64,000 bases of DNA from Anaerolineales bacterium. GTDB lineage: Bacteria > Chloroflexota > Anaerolineae > Anaerolineales > UBA11579. Under the pieces are notes generated by a model, which saw only the letters and a list, made by a program, of their open reading frames with translations, was not told the origin of the DNA and did not search any database. This document shows positions 4,425-50,872 of the stretch, one piece after another. The stretch spans positions 1,442,712 through 1,506,711 of the forward strand of contig CP075526.1 in assembly GCA_025808555.1 (NCBI GenBank), given 5' to 3'. Position 1 is the first letter of the stretch. Every line of letters begins with the position of its first letter. The translations under genes were made by a program, and so were the position numbers.

Positions 4425-4455
4425 GGCCTGAGTTCCTGTGTATCGGGATCACCAC

Positions 4456-6648
4456 ATGACCCAAAAACTCAAAATAGATCCAATCCAGCCGTTACATACC
4501 TTGTTCCAGGCGCTCCCTGGAATTTTAGTTTGGCTCTGCATCCTCGGCTATTTACTGGGAGGGCTGAGTTGGTCCGGTCCTGTGTTGCTGGTTGTCCTCT
4601 CGCTGGGAAGTCTATTGGCTGGCGCACTCAGCGTTCGCTTTTTAGGGCAACTGAATTGGCAAACATTTATTCAGCCATTCATCAACGCAACTGGAAGCAC
4701 GTTTCTCTTGAGTGGGTTCCTTTTACTCCTTTTGATTGAACTCTCCTCGTTTTTACCGCCATTGGTGTACCCCGCAAACCATTCACTTGCCTTGTGTAGG
4801 ATAGATAACCCAACTGACCAGGTTCGTACACCTTTTCTTATTCATGCAATAGAGTATGAAGACGGCCTAATGGTGCCTCTACTGGAGATCAAGGGTGATC
4901 AACCCTGGAATCTGGTTGACGGAGGTCTGATAACACAGGGGGCAGAGGCCTGTGCCCGATTTAGCGGCTTTTTTCAAGGCGGGCTTGTTGTGTACCTGCG
5001 GGAAGGCCCAGGTGCTGGTGTAGCTCAGATTGAATGGGACGGCGATACTCAGCTCATTGATCTGAACTCCAGCGATGAAGCTGTCCGAAAAGTTGTCTTG
5101 TCCGGCGAGCACCCTGTATCAACAACTTCATTTCGAGCAGGTCTGGGCATTGCCTTTCGTGTGGCTTTGGTTTCCACTCTTGTCGCAGCTGCCTTTGGCT
5201 TGGCTGTGGCCTTTAATAGCCACCGGTGGGCCACAGGCCCTTTGGGCAGCGATAATCTCTGGCTGGCCCTGGGGTTTTTGGCTTTGGTTGGTCTGTTAGC
5301 TAGTGGGATCTTAGGGCAGAGCTCTGCTTTGATCGGCGATGATTTTTGCTATTCTGGCGTGGCCCTAAATTCCGGTATCTTAGACGGCACGCGCCAGTTC
5401 TATACTGGCGTTAATGGCCGGTTGCTTGGAAATTTTGTTGGAGTGCTCAGTGGCTACTTGTTCCCGTACGCACAGCCATCCTATGCGATCCTAGTGATAT
5501 TGGCGCTATGGGTGGCTAGTCTAGTGCCGCTCCTTACTCGCCTCTTGCATTGGCTGACCGGGAAGAGACTTTCAGCCATCGCCTGGTCATTGGCGGCTGC
5601 ACTAGTTTTAGTGACGCTCATCAACACTCCAGATATCTATCAGTCCCTTTTTTGGCGCTCAGGGCGCCAGCCCCTTGTCTTTCCGCTCATGATCTGGCCT
5701 TTGGTGCTGGCGCTATTGTCGAATCTTTCGGGGTCCAAACGAGGAGCGGTGGTGGGCTGGAAGTGGCTCGGGTTATCATTTCTGGCACTCGCGGCAGGAG
5801 CTTTTCACGAAGTTTATGCCGCCGCACAGGTTGCCATGCTATTCGTCAGCATGGTTGTCTTAGTGATTTTCGATCGATCATTGCCTAGTAAGCGCACGCC
5901 ACTACTGCAAGGTTTGTTTTGGGCGTTGCTAGGCGCACTTGCTGGCATGCTAGTGCATTTGCTTGCTCCTGGCACCGCAGAGCGCAGCTCAGTCTTAGGT
6001 TCTAATTTTGAGCCGCTCAGGATCCTGTATGGCGCTTTGTACGATACCAACGTCTTTCTATTTGCTGAGAATCTAAACATACTCATGATTGGCGCAGTAT
6101 TGCTTGGAGCAACGCTTGTTATCCGTTCCTCGCAGCCTGGCCGCTTTTACAGCAAACACAATAGCGTGGCCTGGCTGGCTTTACCGGTCGTGCTCTACAC
6201 TGCCGTCTTGGCGTCGTTTGCGGTGGGCCATTATGGAATAAGCCAGACAATGCCCGAGCGCACACAGATCATCCCTGCTTTCATGACTAGTCTGAGCGCA
6301 TTGGTCTGGGGAATGTTGGGGGGAGCTGAGTTCTTGCGTAAGGGACAAAGGGTCAGTAAGAAAACACTTCAAGCAGTTCAACTGGGCATACTTTGCGTCT
6401 TTGGAGTTGCATTTGTGTTCCATGGATATACCATGACGACCAGGCAAGAAGAATTCGATCATTATCGAAGAGCAGTCAATGTAATGGTCAGCTCCATCGA
6501 GGCAGCCCGTCTTGCTGGGGCGCCGCATGTCGTAGTCTCTGCGCTGCCTGATAACCTTTTCGGTGTCGAAAATCCAGGGGCTGAACAACGAAACTTTGTG
6601 AATATTTGCGTTGACCAGTTGTTTGGTATTAACGTTGGCTTCAACTAA
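4456..6648 (+). CDS. Large polytopic membrane protein, possible GT-C-type glycosyltransferase
   Basis: About 730 residues. Three hydrophobic helices (first 100 residues) precede a roughly 110-residue soluble segment containing LREGPGAGVAQIEWDGDTQL, then a long series of hydrophobic helices. After one of them comes GDDFCYSG near residue 295; an acidic pair in an extracytoplasmic loop is the usual catalytic signature of GT-C enzymes, which use polyprenyl-phosphate sugars. That reading is an inference supported by the divergent DPM/ALG5-like gene. It resembles DUF6056-type proteins, which I recall but cannot verify. An in-frame GTG at 4438 is an alternative start. Codon use is more AT-rich than the genome background around it. 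Confidence 0.6.
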   Translation: MTQKLKIDPIQPLHTLFQALPGILVWLCILGYLLGGLSWSGPVLLVVLSLGSLLAGALSVRFLGQLNWQTFIQPFINATGSTFLLSGFLLLLLIELSSFLPPLVYPANHSLALCRIDNPTDQVRTPFLIHAIEYEDGLMVPLLEIKGDQPWNLVDGGLITQGAEACARFSGFFQGGLVVYLREGPGAGVAQIEWDGDTQLIDLNSSDEAVRKVVLSGEHPVSTTSFRAGLGIAFRVALVSTLVAAAFGLAVAFNSHRWATGPLGSDNLWLALGFLALVGLLASGILGQSSALIGDDFCYSGVALNSGILDGTRQFYTGVNGRLLGNFVGVLSGYLFPYAQPSYAILVILALWVASLVPLLTRLLHWLTGKRLSAIAWSLAAALVLVTLINTPDIYQSLFWRSGRQPLVFPLMIWPLVLALLSNLSGSKRGAVVGWKWLGLSFLALAAGAFHEVYAAAQVAMLFVSMVVLVIFDRSLPSKRTPLLQGLFWALLGALAGMLVHLLAPGTAERSSVLGSNFEPLRILYGALYDTNVFLFAENLNILMIGAVLLGATLVIRSSQPGRFYSKHNSVAWLALPVVLYTAVLASFAVGHYGISQTMPERTQIIPAFMTSLSALVWGMLGGAEFLRKGQRVSKKTLQAVQLGILCVFGVAFVFHGYTMTTRQEEFDHYRRAVNVMVSSIEAARLAGAPHVVVSALPDNLFGVENPGAEQRNFVNICVDQLFGINVGFN

Positions 6649-16515: not shown

Positions 16516-18075
16516 CTAGTCCTCTGACTCTTCGGTGGGAATGATCTCGGGCGTGGGGAAGGAAACCACCGGAGCGCGCGAGATGATGCTGCTGGCCGCG
16601 TCCGAAAAGGTGGATGCGCGGATGATGTGACCGAGACGCTCCAGCGTCCCGCTGTAGGCCAGGTTGCCTTCGACCGGAGTCCAGCCCTCCATCGTGAAGG
16701 GCAGAGCACCGGCCGCCTCGACCCATTCGCCGTTGTACTTGCGGGCGATGTGCACGTGAGTGCCGGTGGATGATCCGCCCTCACACGAGGGGTGGCCGAG
16801 CGGCCAGCCCGCCAGCACACGTTGCCCGGCCTGGACACGGCCTGTCTCCGCCAAATGTAAATAGAAGAGCACCCAGCCGGTGCGTTCGTCACCGTCCTGA
16901 TCCAAATCCAAAACAACCGTACCAACATCCGTACGCACCACCAGGCCATCTGCCATGGCTGTGGCCCAGGATGTGCTGTTGAAACAGCCCTGAGTCTCGC
17001 TGCCTGGGGCAAAGTCCAGCGCGGCCCACGGGCGGCCGGTGCCCCAACCCGTATGCGGGCCGCCGGTGTGCGACCACAACTCGCCGGGCGGCATGGGCAG
17101 ACGCAGTTCCGGCTGCAGCAGGCTGCCGGGGATATGGGCCACATCCGCCTGCCAAGGGTCGCCGAATAGGGTGGCGTAAGTGCGGGCAAAGCCTTCCGGC
17201 CCAATGGAGGCGTTGAAATTGGCCATGGGCTCATTGGCGTTGAAGAACATTTGCAGGCTCACACTGGCGGCGTTCTGCCAGGGGTCGGGCCGGTAGATGG
17301 TGCCATCCGGGCGGTCAAATTCGATGAGATTTCCGTTGCGCCACAGGTAATAGCCATTGTTGAGCGTATTGGCCGCCCACACCAACTGCAAATAGACGCC
17401 GCGGTGGAAGGGATGCTCGTAGCCCATGACGTACGGGCCGATGGCATCGTCCAGCACCGGCTGGGTCAGCGCGCCCGACTGGTGCTCCAGCAAGGCCAGC
17501 AGCAGGCGCGGGCTGACGCTGAAGTTCTGGGCTACAAGATCTACCAAGCCGGCACCGGTGCGGCGCTGGCCAGCGGCGTATTCGCGGTAGTTCCGGAGCC
17601 AGCCGGGCTGCGAGTCGACGAAAGCCTGGGTGTCAAAGTCGATCTGGGCCGGCCCGTTGATGAACAGGCTGTCTGGCAGGATCTGGTATTGCGAGCCCCA
17701 ATAGGCGCGGTAGTAGATGGGGATGCGCATGGGGAAGCCCGCCGGCAGCGTAGTGGCCGTATCGGGGATGATGGGGTTGGCGGCGCGGATCTCGCGGATG
17801 GTGGTGTTGAAGCGCGCCGCCAGGGCGATGAGGTTGTCGCCGTTCTGGGCCGTGTAGTCCACCAGCGTGCCGGCGTCGTACAGCGGGCGAGTGGGCAGCG
17901 GGGTCGAGGTCACTACCGGCTCGGACGTCGTCTCGGCGTCTGCCGTGGCAGCTTGGGCGCTGGGCTGCGTTGTGGCGGTCGGCGCTGCCGCACTGACACA
18001 GCCGGCCAGCAGCAGGCTGGCCGCCAGCACTACGCACAGCTTGCGGCCGGGGGAGGGAAGACTAATAGGGATCAT
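16516..18075 (-). CDS. LysM/M23-like lipoprotein, paralogue 3
   Basis: 519 residues. A lipoprotein signal ends in LLLAGC near residue 27, followed by a Thr/Ala/Pro-rich linker. A LysM domain (VDYTAQNGDNLIALAARFNT) starts near residue 68, then comes a middle helical domain (SPRLLLALLEHQSG) and a C-terminal M23-like peptidase domain with GGPHTGW...LDFAPG and THVHIA. The H...D and HxH sets are the zinc ligands of LytM enzymes, so cell-wall hydrolysis at the outer face of the membrane is likely. The ATG lies inside the end of the preceding paralogue (14-base overlap). Last of three tandem copies. Confidence 0.85.
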   Translation of the reverse strand: MIPISLPSPGRKLCVVLAASLLLAGCVSAAAPTATTQPSAQAATADAETTSEPVVTSTPLPTRPLYDAGTLVDYTAQNGDNLIALAARFNTTIREIRAANPIIPDTATTLPAGFPMRIPIYYRAYWGSQYQILPDSLFINGPAQIDFDTQAFVDSQPGWLRNYREYAAGQRRTGAGLVDLVAQNFSVSPRLLLALLEHQSGALTQPVLDDAIGPYVMGYEHPFHRGVYLQLVWAANTLNNGYYLWRNGNLIEFDRPDGTIYRPDPWQNAASVSLQMFFNANEPMANFNASIGPEGFARTYATLFGDPWQADVAHIPGSLLQPELRLPMPPGELWSHTGGPHTGWGTGRPWAALDFAPGSETQGCFNSTSWATAMADGLVVRTDVGTVVLDLDQDGDERTGWVLFYLHLAETGRVQAGQRVLAGWPLGHPSCEGGSSTGTHVHIARKYNGEWVEAAGALPFTMEGWTPVEGNLAYSGTLERLGHIIRASTFSDAASSIISRAPVVSFPTPEIIPTEESED

Positions 18076-19612
18076 CGCTGCTGATGGTGATGATGCTTTC
18101 GCGGCCGCTGCAGGTGCAGGCCACCACAGTGCGCTCGCCGCGCACCAGGTTGCCGAGATAAGCGTCTGCACCGTATTGCACGGTCCAGCCGCTGAGCACA
18201 AAGGGCAGCGCCCCGCCGCCGCCGATCCACTCGCCGTTGTATTTGCGCGCCAGGTGCAAGTGGGTGGCGGTGGCGGTGCCGCCCTCGCAGGAGGGGTGGC
18301 CGAGGCGGTCGCCGCGGTCAAGCCAGGTGCCTACGCTGGGCGTGTTGTCGCCGATGACGTGCAGGTAGAGCACCACCCAGCCGGTTTGCTCGTTGCCGTC
18401 GCCATCCATATCCACCACGATCACGCCCGGGCTGGTGCGTACCACCAGACCTGGCGCAGCGGCGGTGACCCAATGCGTGGAGGCCACGCAGCCGGGCAGC
18501 ACGCTGCTGGGCGCAAAGTCGAGCGCGGCCCACGAGCCCTCGCGCTCCCAGGCGCCGTGCGGGCCGGCGGTGAAATACCACACCTGGCGGTCGAGGAAGG
18601 GCAGGCTGAGGGCCGGCTGCGAGAGCGCCGGCGGGAACAGCGGTTCAGTTTGGGCGGCGCGCACCCACGGGTCAGGGAACATGGATGCATGCGTGAAGGC
18701 GAAGCCGGTGGTGCGGTGCATGATCTCGGCCCAGTCTTCGTAGGTGTACAGCTGGGCGAAGAAATATTGGATCGCCACGGTACCGGCGTTGAGGTCAGGC
18801 GCGATGCGCATGCGGATGCCATCGCGGAAGGTGAGCTCGGTCAGGCGACCCTCGCGCCAGCCGTAGTAGCCGGTAGAGAGCTGCTTGGCGGCCCAGGTGA
18901 GCTGCTGGTACAGGCCGTGCGCCTGTGGCAGCCGGTAGCCGATGGGGTACTCGACCGCGCTGGTGGTGGTGGGCTCGCCCAGTACCCAGTTGCTCTGGTA
19001 CTGCAGGATGGAGAGCAGCAGGCGCGGGTTGAGCGAATTCTCCACCGCCACGCGCTGCACCACGCCGGCCCCGCTGTACCAGGCCGAGGGCAGGTACTCG
19101 CGGTACGTGGCGATGTAGCCGCCGAAGGGGTTGGCGTAGCCATCCGGGTCGAAGCCGATGGCGGACGGCGAGTAGATGACCTCACTGTCCGGCACCAGCT
19201 TCTCGTTGGGCGTGGTGAGGCCCACGGCATGCGGGATGGTAAAGACCTGGCCGGGGTTGATCAGCCCCGGCGGGATGTCCTGCGGCGAAGCAATCTGGCT
19301 AGCATCCACACCGAAGCGGGCGGCCAGCGTATCCAATGTGTCGCCCGACTGGGCGGTGTAGATGAAAGGCGGCGCAGGCGTGGCTGACTCCTGCGGAGTG
19401 GCGCTGGGCATGGCCAGCGAGGTAGGTGTGATGGTGGGCAGCTCAGTGGGGGTGGCCGAGGGCACGAAGGCGCTGGCCGTGGCGCTCAGCTCGGCCTGGG
19501 CAGCCTGCGTGCCCTGCATGCTCTGCGGGGTGATGTAGCTGCTGCTGCATACGGTGGTCACAAGAGCCACCACCAGGCTGCAAGCGATGAGTCGGTAGGA
19601 ACGGGGGGTCAT
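18062..19612 (-). CDS. LysM/M23-like lipoprotein, paralogue 2
   Basis: 516 residues, same layout as its neighbours: hydrophobic leader ending VTTVC (a weak lipobox), Thr/Pro-rich linker, LysM (YTAQSGDTLDTLAARFGV, near residue 85), helical middle domain with NPRLLLSILQYQSN, and a C-terminal M23-type domain with AGPHGAWE...LDFAPS and ATHLHLARKYN. Zinc ligands are kept. It starts at ATG 19612, overlapping the stop of paralogue 1 as ATGA, and the 3' end overlaps paralogue 3 by 14 bases, so all three are probably translated from one message. Confidence 0.85.
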   Translation of the reverse strand: MTPRSYRLIACSLVVALVTTVCSSSYITPQSMQGTQAAQAELSATASAFVPSATPTELPTITPTSLAMPSATPQESATPAPPFIYTAQSGDTLDTLAARFGVDASQIASPQDIPPGLINPGQVFTIPHAVGLTTPNEKLVPDSEVIYSPSAIGFDPDGYANPFGGYIATYREYLPSAWYSGAGVVQRVAVENSLNPRLLLSILQYQSNWVLGEPTTTSAVEYPIGYRLPQAHGLYQQLTWAAKQLSTGYYGWREGRLTELTFRDGIRMRIAPDLNAGTVAIQYFFAQLYTYEDWAEIMHRTTGFAFTHASMFPDPWVRAAQTEPLFPPALSQPALSLPFLDRQVWYFTAGPHGAWEREGSWAALDFAPSSVLPGCVASTHWVTAAAPGLVVRTSPGVIVVDMDGDGNEQTGWVVLYLHVIGDNTPSVGTWLDRGDRLGHPSCEGGTATATHLHLARKYNGEWIGGGGALPFVLSGWTVQYGADAYLGNLVRGERTVVACTCSGRESIITISSDDPY

Positions 19613-21153
19613 GGTTGGCGCTGCACCATATTGGCGGGGAAGCGGCATTCGCAGGCATCCACGCGTACGCCATCGCGCACCAGGCTGCCGTCATACAGAA
19701 TGCCGTTGCTCACGGAGACCCAGCCATCCATCACGAAAGGCAGGTCGCCGGCGGCAGGGATCCACACGCCATTATAGCGACGGGCGATATGCAAGTGTGT
19801 GGCGGTCGCCACGCCGCCCTCGCACGAGGCATGACCGATGCGCTCGCCGGCGCGCAGATAGGCGCCAGCCTGCACGCGCTGGCTGGCGGCGACATGCATG
19901 TATAGCACCGTCCAGCCGGTCTGCTCGTAGCCGTCGCCGTCCAGGTCCTGCACCACGGCGCCGTTGTCGGCGCGCACGACCAGGCCGTCGGCGGCGGCCA
20001 CAACCCATTCAGGGCTGGGGTTGCAGCCATACAGCTCGGCGCCGGGGGCAAAATCGAGCGAAGCCCAGGCCGAGCCGTTGCCCCAGCCGCCGTGCGGGCC
20101 GCCGGAGAAGACCCACGGCACGCGCGGCTCAAAGGGCAGCTGCAGCGCCGGCTGGCTGATGCCGGCCGGCGCCAGCGGCTCGATGGCGTAATCGAACGGA
20201 TAGCCGAACAGGCGCGTGTAGGTTTGGACAAAGCCCTGCTCGCTGACCGCGCTGCGCCATTGGCTCTCGCTGAGCATGAGGCCTAGCAGGCGCTGCACGC
20301 CGGCGGTGCCAGCATTGATGGTGGGGTTGGGCGGGATGGCGATGCCATCCGTGGTGTTCCAGGCGGCAGCCAGGCCGGCCCGCCAGTCGTAGAACCCCTT
20401 GTTGAGATTGTCAGCCGCCCAGGAGAGCTGGCTGTATAAACCCGTGCGCCAGCTGTCCTGCTTGCCCATCGGGTAGGTGAGCGTGCTGCTGGCCGGGTTC
20501 GGATTGGTGAGCCAGCCACTGTAGTACTCCAGCAGGGCCAGCAGCAATTTTGGATTGACCGAATATTCGGTGGCGACGCGCTGCAGGATGGCCGCGCCAC
20601 TGAGGAACTGCTGGTCCACCTGCTCCTGATGCTGGCGCAGGTAGCCGGGCTGGTTGTTGATGAAGTCCTGCACGTTGAAGGCGATGGCATACGGGCCATT
20701 GACCAGCTCGGAATCAGGGATGATCTTGAAATTCGGCCCCATGTTGGTGAGCTGCTGGGGCGGCACGTTGATGACCTGGCCCACGTTGAGCGCGTTGGGA
20801 TTGGGAATGTTGTTGGCGGCCAGCAGCTGCTGCAGGGTCACGCCCAGGCGTTCGGCGATGGCGTTGAGCGAATCGCCGGGTTGCACGGTGTAGATGCTGC
20901 TATCCGTGCGCAGCGCCAGCTGGGCGTGCGGTGCGTCTGGCGTGGGCGTGAGGATCGGCGTGTTCGGGTCACGCGTAGGCGGCAGGGTCGGCGCGGGGGC
21001 GGCGGCGCCTTGCGGCGTGGCTTGCGCCACGGCCGCGGTGGGCACGGCGCCCTGCACGCTGACACCCTGGCCCGGGCCCAGGGTGGTGGTGGGGAAGTTG
21101 CACGCCAGCGAGGCCAGCAGCAGGATTAATAATGAAAAGAAGATGTTTCGCAT
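19609..21153 (-). CDS. LysM/M23-like lipoprotein, paralogue 1 (first of three)
   Basis: 514 residues. The signal MRNIFFSLLILLLASLAC has a clear lipobox. A Pro/Thr linker, LysM (YTVQPGDSLNAIAERLGVT), helical domain with NPKLLLALLEYYSG, and an M23-like C-terminal domain (GGPHGGWG...LDFAPG; ATHLHIARRYN) follow. LysM binds glycan strands and M23 enzymes cut peptide cross-links, so a wall-remodelling role is inferred. An intervening DLDGDGYEQTGW stretch is shared by all three copies and looks like an acidic, possibly metal-binding, insertion. The gene follows the gyrA terminator by about 50 bases. Confidence 0.87.
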   Translation of the reverse strand: MRNIFFSLLILLLASLACNFPTTTLGPGQGVSVQGAVPTAAVAQATPQGAAAPAPTLPPTRDPNTPILTPTPDAPHAQLALRTDSSIYTVQPGDSLNAIAERLGVTLQQLLAANNIPNPNALNVGQVINVPPQQLTNMGPNFKIIPDSELVNGPYAIAFNVQDFINNQPGYLRQHQEQVDQQFLSGAAILQRVATEYSVNPKLLLALLEYYSGWLTNPNPASSTLTYPMGKQDSWRTGLYSQLSWAADNLNKGFYDWRAGLAAAWNTTDGIAIPPNPTINAGTAGVQRLLGLMLSESQWRSAVSEQGFVQTYTRLFGYPFDYAIEPLAPAGISQPALQLPFEPRVPWVFSGGPHGGWGNGSAWASLDFAPGAELYGCNPSPEWVVAAADGLVVRADNGAVVQDLDGDGYEQTGWTVLYMHVAASQRVQAGAYLRAGERIGHASCEGGVATATHLHIARRYNGVWIPAAGDLPFVMDGWVSVSNGILYDGSLVRDGVRVDACECRFPANMVQRQP

Positions 21154-21200: not shown

Positions 21201-21253
21201 AAAAAATAGGCCACCTGTTTTACTGCGCAAACGCAGCTACAGGTGGCCTATTT
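21201..21253 (-). terminator. Rho-independent terminator of gyrA
   Basis: Perfect 13-bp arms (AATAGGCCACCTG and its complement, 21205-21217 and 21240-21252) with a nested CTGCG/CGCAG hairpin in the loop. On the minus strand they are followed by a run of six T. It lies 18 bases beyond the gyrA stop. Confidence 0.9.
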
Positions 21254-24166: not shown

Positions 24167-25207
24167 TTGAACAAAGTGATACCCACAATATCCCGCACGG
24201 GGCCACTTTCACCAGAGGTTTTGGTGCCGCGCCTGGGCGACAGCCTGGTCGAAAAAGGCCTGTTGACCCAGGCCCAACTGCAGCAGGCCCTGGCCTACCA
24301 GAAAGAGCGGCGTGGCGAGGGCGAGCGTGTGCTGCTTGGCCAGGCCCTGGTGGACCTGGGGCTGATCGACCGCCAGAAGCTGGACGCGGCGGTGACCGAG
24401 CAGATCGCCCAGCTGCAGGAAGCCCTGCACCAGAGCAACCTACTGCTGGAGCAGCGCGTGCAGGAACGCACGGCCGAGCTGCAGGAAGCGCTGAACAAGC
24501 TGACCGAGCTCAACCGCATGAAGAATGACTTCATCTCCAATGTGTCGCACGAGCTGCGGACCCCGCTGGCGCACATGGTGGGCTATATTGACCTGCTTTC
24601 GGCTGAGGCGCTGGGCACGGTGACCGATGATCAACGCTCGGCCTTGGGCGTGCTGGAGAAATCGTACAAGCGGCTGGCCAGCTTGATCGATAACCTGCTA
24701 TTCCTCTCGTTCGATACCGCTGAGACCCTGCATCTGGAGCCTAGGCCGGTGGATCTGGTGACCCTGTTCGGGCAGGTGATCGATCAGTACCAGGCGCGCG
24801 CCAGCAATGAGAACATCAGCCTGACCCAGGATGTGCCCCCCAGCCTGCCGCTGGCCCAGGCCGACATCAACCGACTGGAGTGGGCGCTGGGCCAGCTGGT
24901 GGACAATGCCCTCAAGTTCAATTCGCGGGATGGCCGCGTACATATCAACGCCCGCCAGGAAGGCTCGCGCATCGAAGTGGCCGTGGCCGACACCGGCATT
25001 GGCATCCCTGCGGACAAGCTGCAGGAGATCTTTGAGCCCTTCCACCAGCTGGATAGCTCCAGCACCCGCCGGCATGCCGGCACCGGCATTGGCCTTACGC
25101 TGGCCCGGCGCATCATCGAGGGGCATGGGGCCAGGCTGCTGGTGGAATCACTGCCGGGCAAGGGTTCGCGCTTTTCGTTCAGTCTACCGGTGTCGGCAGC
25201 AGCATGA
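24167..25207 (+). CDS. Soluble sensor histidine kinase with MshEN-like N-terminal domain
   Basis: 346 residues with no membrane segment. Residues 22-85 (LGDSLVEKGLLTQAQLQQAL...LGQALVDLGLI) look like the MshEN/GspE-N domain, which in some proteins binds c-di-GMP. A coiled-coil linker leads to a HisKA domain with His128 in VSHELRTP, then an ATPase domain with N247 in LVDNALKF, DTGIGI at 275-280 and GTGIGL near 305. It starts at TTG 24167, or GTG 24176. The stop overlaps the next kinase as ATGA. Cytosolic sensing, perhaps of a nucleotide, is inferred. Confidence 0.88.
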   Translation: MNKVIPTISRTGPLSPEVLVPRLGDSLVEKGLLTQAQLQQALAYQKERRGEGERVLLGQALVDLGLIDRQKLDAAVTEQIAQLQEALHQSNLLLEQRVQERTAELQEALNKLTELNRMKNDFISNVSHELRTPLAHMVGYIDLLSAEALGTVTDDQRSALGVLEKSYKRLASLIDNLLFLSFDTAETLHLEPRPVDLVTLFGQVIDQYQARASNENISLTQDVPPSLPLAQADINRLEWALGQLVDNALKFNSRDGRVHINARQEGSRIEVAVADTGIGIPADKLQEIFEPFHQLDSSSTRRHAGTGIGLTLARRIIEGHGARLLVESLPGKGSRFSFSLPVSAAA

Positions 25208-26445
25208 GCGAGCCGCCGCGCAACACGCTGCCTTTAAATGAATTGCAGGCCGTGTATGCCATCAGCCGCGTCGTAACCGAGACGCTGGATGTGGATAAGG
25301 CGCTGGCTGAGATCGTGCGTCTTTCCCGCCCGGTGTTCATCTTTGATAACGCCGTGTTGTACCTGGCTAGCGAAAGCGGCGCCCTGGAGCCGGCCTTCGC
25401 CCGCGCCATCGGCCGCGGGCGATCCTCTGAGGCTGACTCGGCCTGGGGCGAGGCGGCCGGGTTCGCCGCCTTCCGCGAGGCTCAGACCGTGGTCACCCAG
25501 CCGGAGCCTGACCCGGGCGCCGACCGCCTCGAGCAGCGCTCCTTCCTTGGCTTGCCGCTGCTGGCGGGCGGCAGCGCCATCGGGGCGCTGGTGTTCGTGC
25601 GCTTTGGCGGGCCTACCTTCACCAAGGCCCAGATCAACCTGGCGCAGTACATTGCGGCCCACGTCACCCAGGTGCTGGAGCATCGTCGCCTGGTGGAGCG
25701 CATCGGCAGCCTGGAGGCTGAGCGTCGTTTGAGCCAACTGCAGTCAGACTTCATTGCCACCGTATCGCATGAGCTTAAGACCCCGCTGGGCTTCATCAAG
25801 GGCTACTCCACCACGCTGCTCCGGCCAGACGCCAGCTGGAAGCTGGAAGACCAGAAAGAGTTCCTGACCATCATTGACGAGGAAGCTGACCGCCTGGTGG
25901 AATTGGTGGACAACCTGCTTGACTCCTCACGGCTGCAGAACGGCAGCCTGGATATAGACATTCGCCCAGTCGATCTGGCGGCGGTCATCGAAGAGAACAT
26001 CGAGCGCCTGCGCGTGCGCTTCCCGGCGCTGGACATTCGCTGGGCGCCGCCCAGCGAAGACAGCACCGTGGAAGCCGATGCGCGCCGGCTGGGCCAGGTG
26101 TTGGAGAACCTGGCCAGCAACGTCGCCAAATACGCCGTCAATGGCCCGCTGCAGATCGGCTTGCAACTGAGTGACGATGAGGCCACCTTGACCGTTAGTG
26201 ACAGCGGGCCAGGTATTCCGCCGCAACACCGCGAGCAGGTGTTCGAACGCTTTTATCGTTTGCCTGCCAGCAAAGAGCTGGCGCGCGGCAGCGGTTTAGG
26301 GTTATATATATGTAAGCAGATCGTTCTTGCGCATGGGGGCGAGATCAGCCTGGTTAAGACAAAGGGCAGGGGAGCTGAATTCATCATTCGCTTGCCGCGG
26401 CATACGCGCGTACCGCTGGCTGAGCACAAAGAGGGTACAAAATGA
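25204..26445 (+). CDS. GAF-domain sensor histidine kinase
   Basis: 413 residues, also without membrane segments. Residues about 15-160 form a GAF-type sensory domain (FIFDNAVLYLASESGALEPA...LGLPLLAGGSAIGALVFV). HisKA has His189 in VSHELKTPLGFIKG, and the HATPase region has LENLASNVAKYA, DSGPGIPP and GSGLGLYICKQIV. ATGA overlap at both ends (25204-25207 and 26442-26445) ties it to the preceding kinase and the following regulator. It may be the direct phosphodonor of that regulator. Confidence 0.92.
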   Translation: MSEPPRNTLPLNELQAVYAISRVVTETLDVDKALAEIVRLSRPVFIFDNAVLYLASESGALEPAFARAIGRGRSSEADSAWGEAAGFAAFREAQTVVTQPEPDPGADRLEQRSFLGLPLLAGGSAIGALVFVRFGGPTFTKAQINLAQYIAAHVTQVLEHRRLVERIGSLEAERRLSQLQSDFIATVSHELKTPLGFIKGYSTTLLRPDASWKLEDQKEFLTIIDEEADRLVELVDNLLDSSRLQNGSLDIDIRPVDLAAVIEENIERLRVRFPALDIRWAPPSEDSTVEADARRLGQVLENLASNVAKYAVNGPLQIGLQLSDDEATLTVSDSGPGIPPQHREQVFERFYRLPASKELARGSGLGLYICKQIVLAHGGEISLVKTKGRGAEFIIRLPRHTRVPLAEHKEGTK

Positions 26446-27125
26446 ATGAGCGCATACTAATTGTTGACGACGAGCCACGCTTTGTTCGCCTGATCGAGGC
26501 CAACCTGCAAACGGAGGGCTATCAGGTGCTCAAGGCTTCCAACGGCAGGCAGGCGGTGGAGGAAAGCGCCGCGCACAAGCCGGACATGGTGCTGTTGGAC
26601 GTCATGATGCCGGAGATGGATGGCTTCCAGGCTTGCGCCCGTATCCGTGAATTCTCCAACGTGCCCATCATCATGCTGACTGCCAAGGGCGATGAGGACC
26701 AGCGCATCAAGGGGCTGAACCTGGGGGCTGACGATTACATCGTCAAGCCGTTCTCGGCCGGCGAAATGCTGGCGCGGGTGCGCTCGGTGCTGCGCCGCGC
26801 CAAGACCGCCTCGCAAGAGGCGGGCGAGACGGTCTTCACCCGTGGCAACCTGCAAATTGACTTTGCGCGGGCTGAAGTGCGCCTGGAGGGCGAGCTGGTC
26901 TCGCTCTCGGCCACCGAGTACCGCCTACTGCTCCAGTTTGCCCATGCTGCCGGGCGCATTTTGACCGCTGAGGATCTGTTGCGCAACGTGTGGGGCGAGG
27001 AGTACAGCGAAGAGAAAGAGATCCTGTGGGTCAGCATCTCGCGGCTGCGCCAAAAGCTGGAGAAGGACCCCAAACAGCCAGAAATGATCGTTACCCACTC
27101 TGGTGCAGGGTACTCAATGCCCTAG
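26442..27125 (+). CDS. OmpR/PhoB-family response regulator
   Basis: 227 residues: receiver domain with acidic pocket VDDEP, phosphoacceptor Asp53 in LLDVMMPEMDGF, and Lys102 in VKPF, then a winged-helix DNA-binding domain (LSATEYRLLLQFAHAAGRIL...WVSISRLRQKLE). It ends a three-gene overlapping operon with two histidine kinases. Targets are unknown; autoregulation of the operon is possible. Confidence 0.95.
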   Translation: MNERILIVDDEPRFVRLIEANLQTEGYQVLKASNGRQAVEESAAHKPDMVLLDVMMPEMDGFQACARIREFSNVPIIMLTAKGDEDQRIKGLNLGADDYIVKPFSAGEMLARVRSVLRRAKTASQEAGETVFTRGNLQIDFARAEVRLEGELVSLSATEYRLLLQFAHAAGRILTAEDLLRNVWGEEYSEEKEILWVSISRLRQKLEKDPKQPEMIVTHSGAGYSMP

Positions 27126-49443: not shown

Positions 49444-49492
49444 CTCGCCCGACAACTGAATATTGCCCAGCGTGCCAAATCGGCATGCATTT

Positions 49493-49643
49493 CATCCAGA
49501 GAGGTTGAGGGAATCGGCCCGTTGAAACCTCGGCAACCCCCGTTTACGGAAGGTGCCAATTCCGACAGAAAAGTTCTGGAAGATGAGAGGGAGCAAGCCT
49601 GTGATTTGCCCTTCTCTGCTGTCTTAAGGGCAAATTTTTGTTT
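49493..49643 (+). ncRNA. SAM-I (S-box) riboswitch
   Basis: Aptamer from about 49493 to 49600: CATCCAGAGAGGTTGAGGGA, then CGGCCCGTTGAAACCTCGGCAA, then AAGGTGCCAATTCC, the conserved S-box core in order. It ends in a terminator (49604-49643) directly before metK. High SAM should therefore stop transcription of SAM synthetase, a direct feedback loop. Confidence 0.95.
49604..49643 (+). terminator. Riboswitch expression-platform terminator
   Basis: ATTTGCCCTT (49604-49613) pairs with AAGGGCAAAT (49626-49635) and is followed by TTTTGTTT. Confidence 0.85.

Positions 49644-49660: not shown

Positions 49661-50872
<1,212 letters not shown>

Follow-up and report, generated by a model that had tools for sequence, protein, structure and literature searches.

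Three tandem genes of an Anaerolineales genome most probably encode specialised, membrane-tethered peptidoglycan endopeptidases, which carry a probably non-catalytic lysozyme-like module and stem from an ancient triplication retained to the present. New here is the association of an M23A peptidase with a companion domain of the Chloroflexota, fixed as a trio throughout the order. The genes are hereafter called A, B and C, and lie in the window, the whole stretch of 64,000 nucleotides analyzed, as follows:

19609..21153, minus strand: gene A (copy 1), 514 aa, LysM, lysozyme-like middle domain and M23A peptidase; putative lipoprotein (SLAC box).
18062..19612, minus strand: gene B (copy 2), 516 aa, architecture as in A; non-canonical lipobox TTVC; 4-nt overlap with A (ATGA).
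16516..18075, minus strand: gene C (copy 3), 519 aa, architecture as in A; canonical lipobox LAGC; 14-nt overlap with B.
21204..21253, minus strand: intrinsic terminator behind gyrA and immediately ahead of gene A; the RNA folds at -34.6 kcal/mol (z -7.6), and a U run comes next.

The locus had been described in the first-pass annotation as a tandem array of three overlapping paralogues, and lengths, overlaps and coordinates all proved exact. The proteins are 41-43% identical in pairwise comparisons, and each is made up, in the same order, by a hydrophobic signal, a Pro/Thr-rich linker, LysM, the helical middle domain and M23. The trio is no chance feature, since each copy is kept as an orthogroup of its own across Anaerolineales. 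The view of the paralogues as wall hydrolases is supported; their catalytic residues are intact, and they form a compact unit behind the gyrA terminator.

The strong intrinsic terminator found between gyrA and gene A makes the array a transcription unit of its own. Less than 60 nt are left between terminator and gene A for promoter and leader, and a sigma-70 promoter scan found no promoter. The gyrA-like neighbour is not conserved, being matched in 5 of 80 loci analyzed in relatives, and directly upstream in locus L001 only; an OsmC gene resides downstream in 36 of the 80. The gene neighbourhood was rejected as a functional clue, gyrA being rare and OsmC having no wall-related meaning. Other features of the window are a SAM riboswitch (49489-49589, plus strand, 86.7 bits) upstream of the ORF 49661-50872, a set of histidine kinase, second kinase-like ORF and response regulator with 4-nt overlaps (24167-27125, plus strand), and a 736-aa protein matching DUF6056 between tsaD and uvrA (4438-6648, plus strand).

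Gene overlaps of 4 and 14 nt could denote proteins co-translated in fixed stoichiometry, as in a hetero-trimer, or used in sequence. At most 150 nt separate neighbouring open frames in 65 of the 74 loci with at least three copies, and the array is an independent transcription unit, as this hypothesis would predict. We consider it rather unlikely nonetheless, because some relatives keep the genes apart, a sign that coupled translation is not strictly needed. About 1.5 kb separate B from C in G360 and G307, both of the host's genus, with opposite-strand genes interposed in G360; the arrays are interrupted by 1.5 kb in L002 and by 1.05 kb in L003; the A genes of G028 and G248 are found on the other strand, 6-9 kb away; and some genomes keep two copies only. 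The same data speak against the sequential or strictly stoichiometric use suggested by the first-pass annotation. The genes interposed in G360 (L219:3643-5023, minus strand) are two lipoprotein-like ORFs of 320 and 131 aa.

Copy number and gene order, which the first-pass annotation had proposed to compare, are both conserved in relatives. The family is present in all 201 Anaerolineales genomes sampled, 188 of which hold at least three copies and 13 two. In a class-wide sample, three copies were found in 9/9 genomes of Anaerolineales. Among 66 genomes of other Anaerolineae orders giving a strong match, 62 have one copy, four have two (in at least two of these the genes are probably split), and none has three. 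At least three copies, all on one strand, are found in 74 of the 80 loci fetched. A tree of 243 proteins shows three supported groups, which correspond to copies 1, 2 and 3 by position in the array; a fourth copy (B'), present now and then, arose by duplication of B. Supports in a careful rooted tree are 91/92 for A, 98/88 for B plus B', and 78/99 for C. According to a quick tree the single copy of the other orders would be the ortholog of A, an assignment which was dropped, as the careful rooted tree leaves the basal placement open. Most simply read, the data indicate a single triplication in the ancestor of Anaerolineales, followed by long retention and some later losses. A genus with two copies only, one of which lacks a recognisable LysM, is represented by L216 and L217 (genomes G451 and G417).

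The LysM domains of the three proteins are the following:

20761..20892, minus strand: LysM of A, residues 88-131, PF01476 E 2.5e-16; VIA Z 9 to LysM structures.
19232..19360, minus strand: LysM of B, residues 85-127, PF01476 E 1.1e-7.
17719..17856, minus strand: LysM of C, residues 74-119, PF01476 E 4e-6.

All three are above the PF01476 cut-off of 20.9 bits, scoring 59.8 (A), 32.1 (B) and 27.1 (C) bits. Conservation of the domain varies among the groups, the LysM of C being far more conserved (0.69) than those of A (0.47) and B (0.51). These differences bear on the hypothesis that the copies are redundant and held for dosage, without specialisation. In line with it, architecture and catalytic residues are the same across A, B and C, and the groups differ by few fixed positions. 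Yet three orthogroups have been retained order-wide, in a fixed order and without gene conversion, and besides the uneven conservation of LysM, group-specific residues mark position 214 (alanine in C, tryptophan in A and B) and position 320 (phenylalanine in A, tryptophan in B and C). Redundancy for dosage thus seems distinctly unlikely, and we favour specialised copies.

The region between LysM and M23 is occupied by the middle domain:

20188..20736, minus strand: middle domain of A (residues 140-322); LLLALLEYYSG contains E209, and Y stands where transglycosylases have glutamate.
18581..19210, minus strand: middle domain of B, to the M23 junction; Q209 and Q211, neither acidic.
17077..17694, minus strand: middle domain of C, to the M23 junction; E209 and Q211.

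The LLLALLE-type motif noted earlier as conserved in the three proteins needs correction for B, which reads LLLSILQ. Searches of the middle domain against Pfam and NCBIfam gave nothing above cut-off, one member hitting Glucosaminidase at E 0.035, and a sequence profile search against PDB gave no match up to E 5. An AF2 model of the middle domain of A alone has a pLDDT of 93.4. Foldseek matches of this model in PDB are all below significance (best E 0.21, probability 0.57, TM 0.37), the leading ones belonging nearly all to the lysozyme superfamily (AtlE, LytB, g-type lysozymes, MltF, MltC, MltE). VIA superimposed the domain on LytB with a Z of 8.3, a value in the range where chance is possible, at 3.6 A over 130 residues. 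In a viral structure library, a glucosaminidase, a putative endolysin and a transglycosylase rank first. A viral origin was considered and rejected, no relative being found in viral contigs. On the grounds of these weak fold matches, the middle domain is provisionally placed in the lysozyme superfamily (GH23/GH73). A match to a known catalytic family, the result set in advance as refuting the first-pass interpretation, was thus seen at the level of weak fold similarity only.

Profile comparison by hhalign was made with SLT alone, because GH73 was searched for in relatives and none was found. In this independent comparison, the middle domain aligned to the SLT proteins of the hosts (P 2e-4, covering the first core helix), and the SLT catalytic glutamate falls at residue 211. 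Residue 211 is mostly Q, R or Y; Glu is found in 25/78 B and in no A or C sequence. As the transglycosylase glutamate position is not conserved, the domain is probably a non-catalytic pseudo-lysozyme.

The alternative is that the proteins are bifunctional, the middle domain being an active glycosidase which works via E209, a new branch of the lysozyme superfamily, so that both glycan and peptide would be cut. Of 243 aligned copies, 235 have E or D at residue 209, as do more distant Chloroflexota proteins, a conservation which could mean a catalytic role and speaks, as do fold scores that are below significance or may reflect chance, against the preferred reading of endopeptidases with a non-catalytic lysozyme-like module. 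The lysozyme-like fold matches point in the same direction as E209, and gp13 of phage phi29 is among the Foldseek hits. Residue 209, however, lies two positions ahead of the SLT glutamate in the helix, and should face elsewhere; the SLT position, mostly Q, R or Y in the family, is taken by other residues in the distant proteins; copy B of the window, which has Q at 209, L001 and L002 lack any acid at 209-211; and no Pfam glycosidase exceeds the cut-off. We hold bifunctional enzymes to be improbable.

The phage enzyme offers a known parallel in domain order. Phi29 gp13 is a phage tail enzyme with lysozyme and M23 domains. It resembles A, B and C in having a lysozyme-fold domain ahead of M23 (3csq); in contrast, the three proteins lack the conserved transglycosylase glutamate, and feature in addition LysM and a membrane anchor.

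Elsewhere in Chloroflexota, the middle domain was detected in 67 of 301 genomes sampled. In 20/20 of the more distant Chloroflexota proteins annotated it is directly followed by M23, mostly M23B accompanied by Golvesin_C, Laminin_G_3 or Ig-like domains; two carry an M23A-like domain. Proteins of the L139 and L222 type, with Golvesin_C or Laminin_G_3, share with the trio the same middle domain directly before M23, and differ from it because they are canonical M23B, lack LysM and end in C-terminal lectin-like or Ig-like domains. Since the domain never occurs without M23 in the sample, it is probably a partner that positions or regulates the peptidase. An open frame of 2320 aa with the middle domain, M23 and repeated beta-domains was found in the trio-bearing genome G072 (L150:3644-9004, plus strand). 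A bolder view, which we regard as having a small chance of being correct, is that the middle domain is a new, Chloroflexota-restricted branch of the lysozyme superfamily, either cutting glycan via E209 or acting as a glycan-sensing switch of M23. If so, the Anaerolineales trio would consist of three peptidases that are dual-action or glycan-gated, and whose roles are fixed and cannot be interchanged.

The peptidase domains, and a loop inserted in the domain of A, map as follows:

19639..20157, minus strand: M23A domain of A; H354, D367, H420, H453, H455; C377 and C444.
18104..18646, minus strand: M23A domain of B; ligands intact.
16600..17142, minus strand: M23A domain of C; ligands intact.
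19924..19947, minus strand: DxDGDG loop, inserted in A at residues 403-410 (DLDGDGYE) and lacking in the solved M23A structures; putatively a Ca2+ loop.

The Pfam M23 cut-off (28.7 bits) is passed by A only, B and C falling short at 15.2 and 26.3 bits. Alignment nevertheless confirmed the H...D and HxH ligands, recognised at first reading, in all three. Of 243 family members, 239 keep the zinc ligands together with both catalytic histidines. The set H354/D367/H420/H453/H455 is complete in 81/81 A, 76/78 B, 70/72 C and 6/6 B' sequences, and H354 and D367, with 12 residues between them in copy A, are invariant in 243/243; as the patterns that retrieved the 80 loci were drawn from columns of the query alignment within M23, these figures are slightly biased, most in copy A. 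The two incomplete C rows are alignment gaps at ligand positions. HxH reads RxP in copy 2 of L041, of the copy B type, the sole case in 243 with both histidines replaced. In L148 (533-2116, plus strand), from another Anaerolineae order (G128), the first M23 ligands are lost, GPASPRG replacing GPHxxW, and this homologue is possibly a non-catalytic derivative.

The peptidase belongs to subfamily M23A, the LasA/beta-lytic type. A review of the M23 family (PMC9662197) describes the H(x)12D spacing as that of LasA and sets it against M23B. The best matches in an M23 profile search were pseudoalterin (E 2.5e-12), beta-lytic protease (1.3e-9) and LasA (3.2e-9), and the same three proteins are the best fold matches of an AlphaFold model of the domain (pLDDT 91.6). 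VIA Z was 20.1 for LasA, 19.7 and 19.0 for the other two M23A structures, and 12.9 for the best M23B. LasA (3it5), pseudoalterin (6ik4) and beta-lytic protease (8af1) share with the trio H(x)12D, HxH and the M23A fold, the catalytic His about 30 residues before HxH, and the cEGGxSTGxHxH region with its conserved Cys. Wherever they are aligned, C377 and C444 do not vary, and a disulphide between them is probable. Further variation concerns the DLDGDG-type insertion already described for the three proteins, which is indeed present as DLDGDG in A, DMDGDG in B and DLDQDG in C, and distinguishes them from the three solved M23A structures. Each of its three Asp is 93-100% conserved in A, B and C, and the loop looks like a Ca2+ loop.

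Kinship to LasA and beta-lytic protease, listed under bacterial virulence and as bacteriolytic, respectively (PMC9662197), raises the question of whether A, B and C are secreted weapons against other bacteria. The M23A subfamily and the two conserved cysteines are shared; unlike those proteins, however, the peptidase here is preceded by LysM and by a lysozyme-like domain, the signal is that of a membrane anchor rather than of a secreted protein, and near-universal presence in the order fits housekeeping, making bacteriolytic weapons very unlikely.

Proteins of the NlpD, DipM and MepM type are lipoproteins or periplasmic proteins in which LysM precedes M23, as in A, B and C. They are M23B (LytM) proteins, in contrast to the M23A trio with its extra lysozyme-like domain in between, and the NCBIfam models for DipM, NlpD and MepM gave scores far below cut-offs. 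Non-catalytic LytM-type regulators of amidases, in the style of EnvC or NlpD, are hence hardly credible, the LysM plus M23 plan common to NlpD and DipM being offset by zinc ligands that have not been lost.

A lipobox had been assigned to all three proteins by the first-pass annotation. By the criterion [LVI][ASTVI][GAS]C at the end of the signal peptide, C alone (LAGC) conforms strictly, A having SLAC and B TTVC, with V at -1. Strict lipoboxes were found among homologues in 51/77 A, 46/78 B and 64/72 C sequences. TTVC of copy B corresponds to TAVC in the close relative L001, and the case for B as a lipoprotein is weak. Gene A is 90% identical at the closest named locus, also from an Anaerolineales MAG. 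The host genome (2.24 Mb) encodes five transpeptidase-domain proteins, two SLT proteins, LspA and further M23 proteins; from the transpeptidases, the SLT proteins and LspA, a peptidoglycan wall and lipoprotein processing are to be expected. In Litorilinea, another member of the Chloroflexota, a peptidoglycan layer in multilayered filaments is supported by a recent study (PMC13319060). A literature search for proteins of the A, B or C type, and for wall or bridge chemistry in Anaerolineales, found nothing specific.

According to the reading that we prefer, specialised endopeptidases, each protein would be exported and tethered outside the cytoplasmic membrane, as a lipoprotein or by a signal anchor. 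LysM would bind the glycan of peptidoglycan. The middle domain, a lysozyme fold which lost or never had the transglycosylase glutamate, may hold or check the strand, working as a non-catalytic glycan-binding or positioning module for M23, and the M23A zinc domain would cleave peptide cross-links. A, B and C may be specialised by site, timing or bond, serving wall growth or cell separation, and the three versions would have diverged enough to be retained separately over the age of the order.

Anaerolineales are filamentous bacteria common in sludge and sediment. The presence of an order-wide trio, as opposed to a single gene in sister orders, makes A, B and C strong candidates for a core growth or division tool of Anaerolineales, and the trio a candidate marker of the order. 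The middle domain linked to M23 recurs in Chloroflexota, and has no Pfam family.
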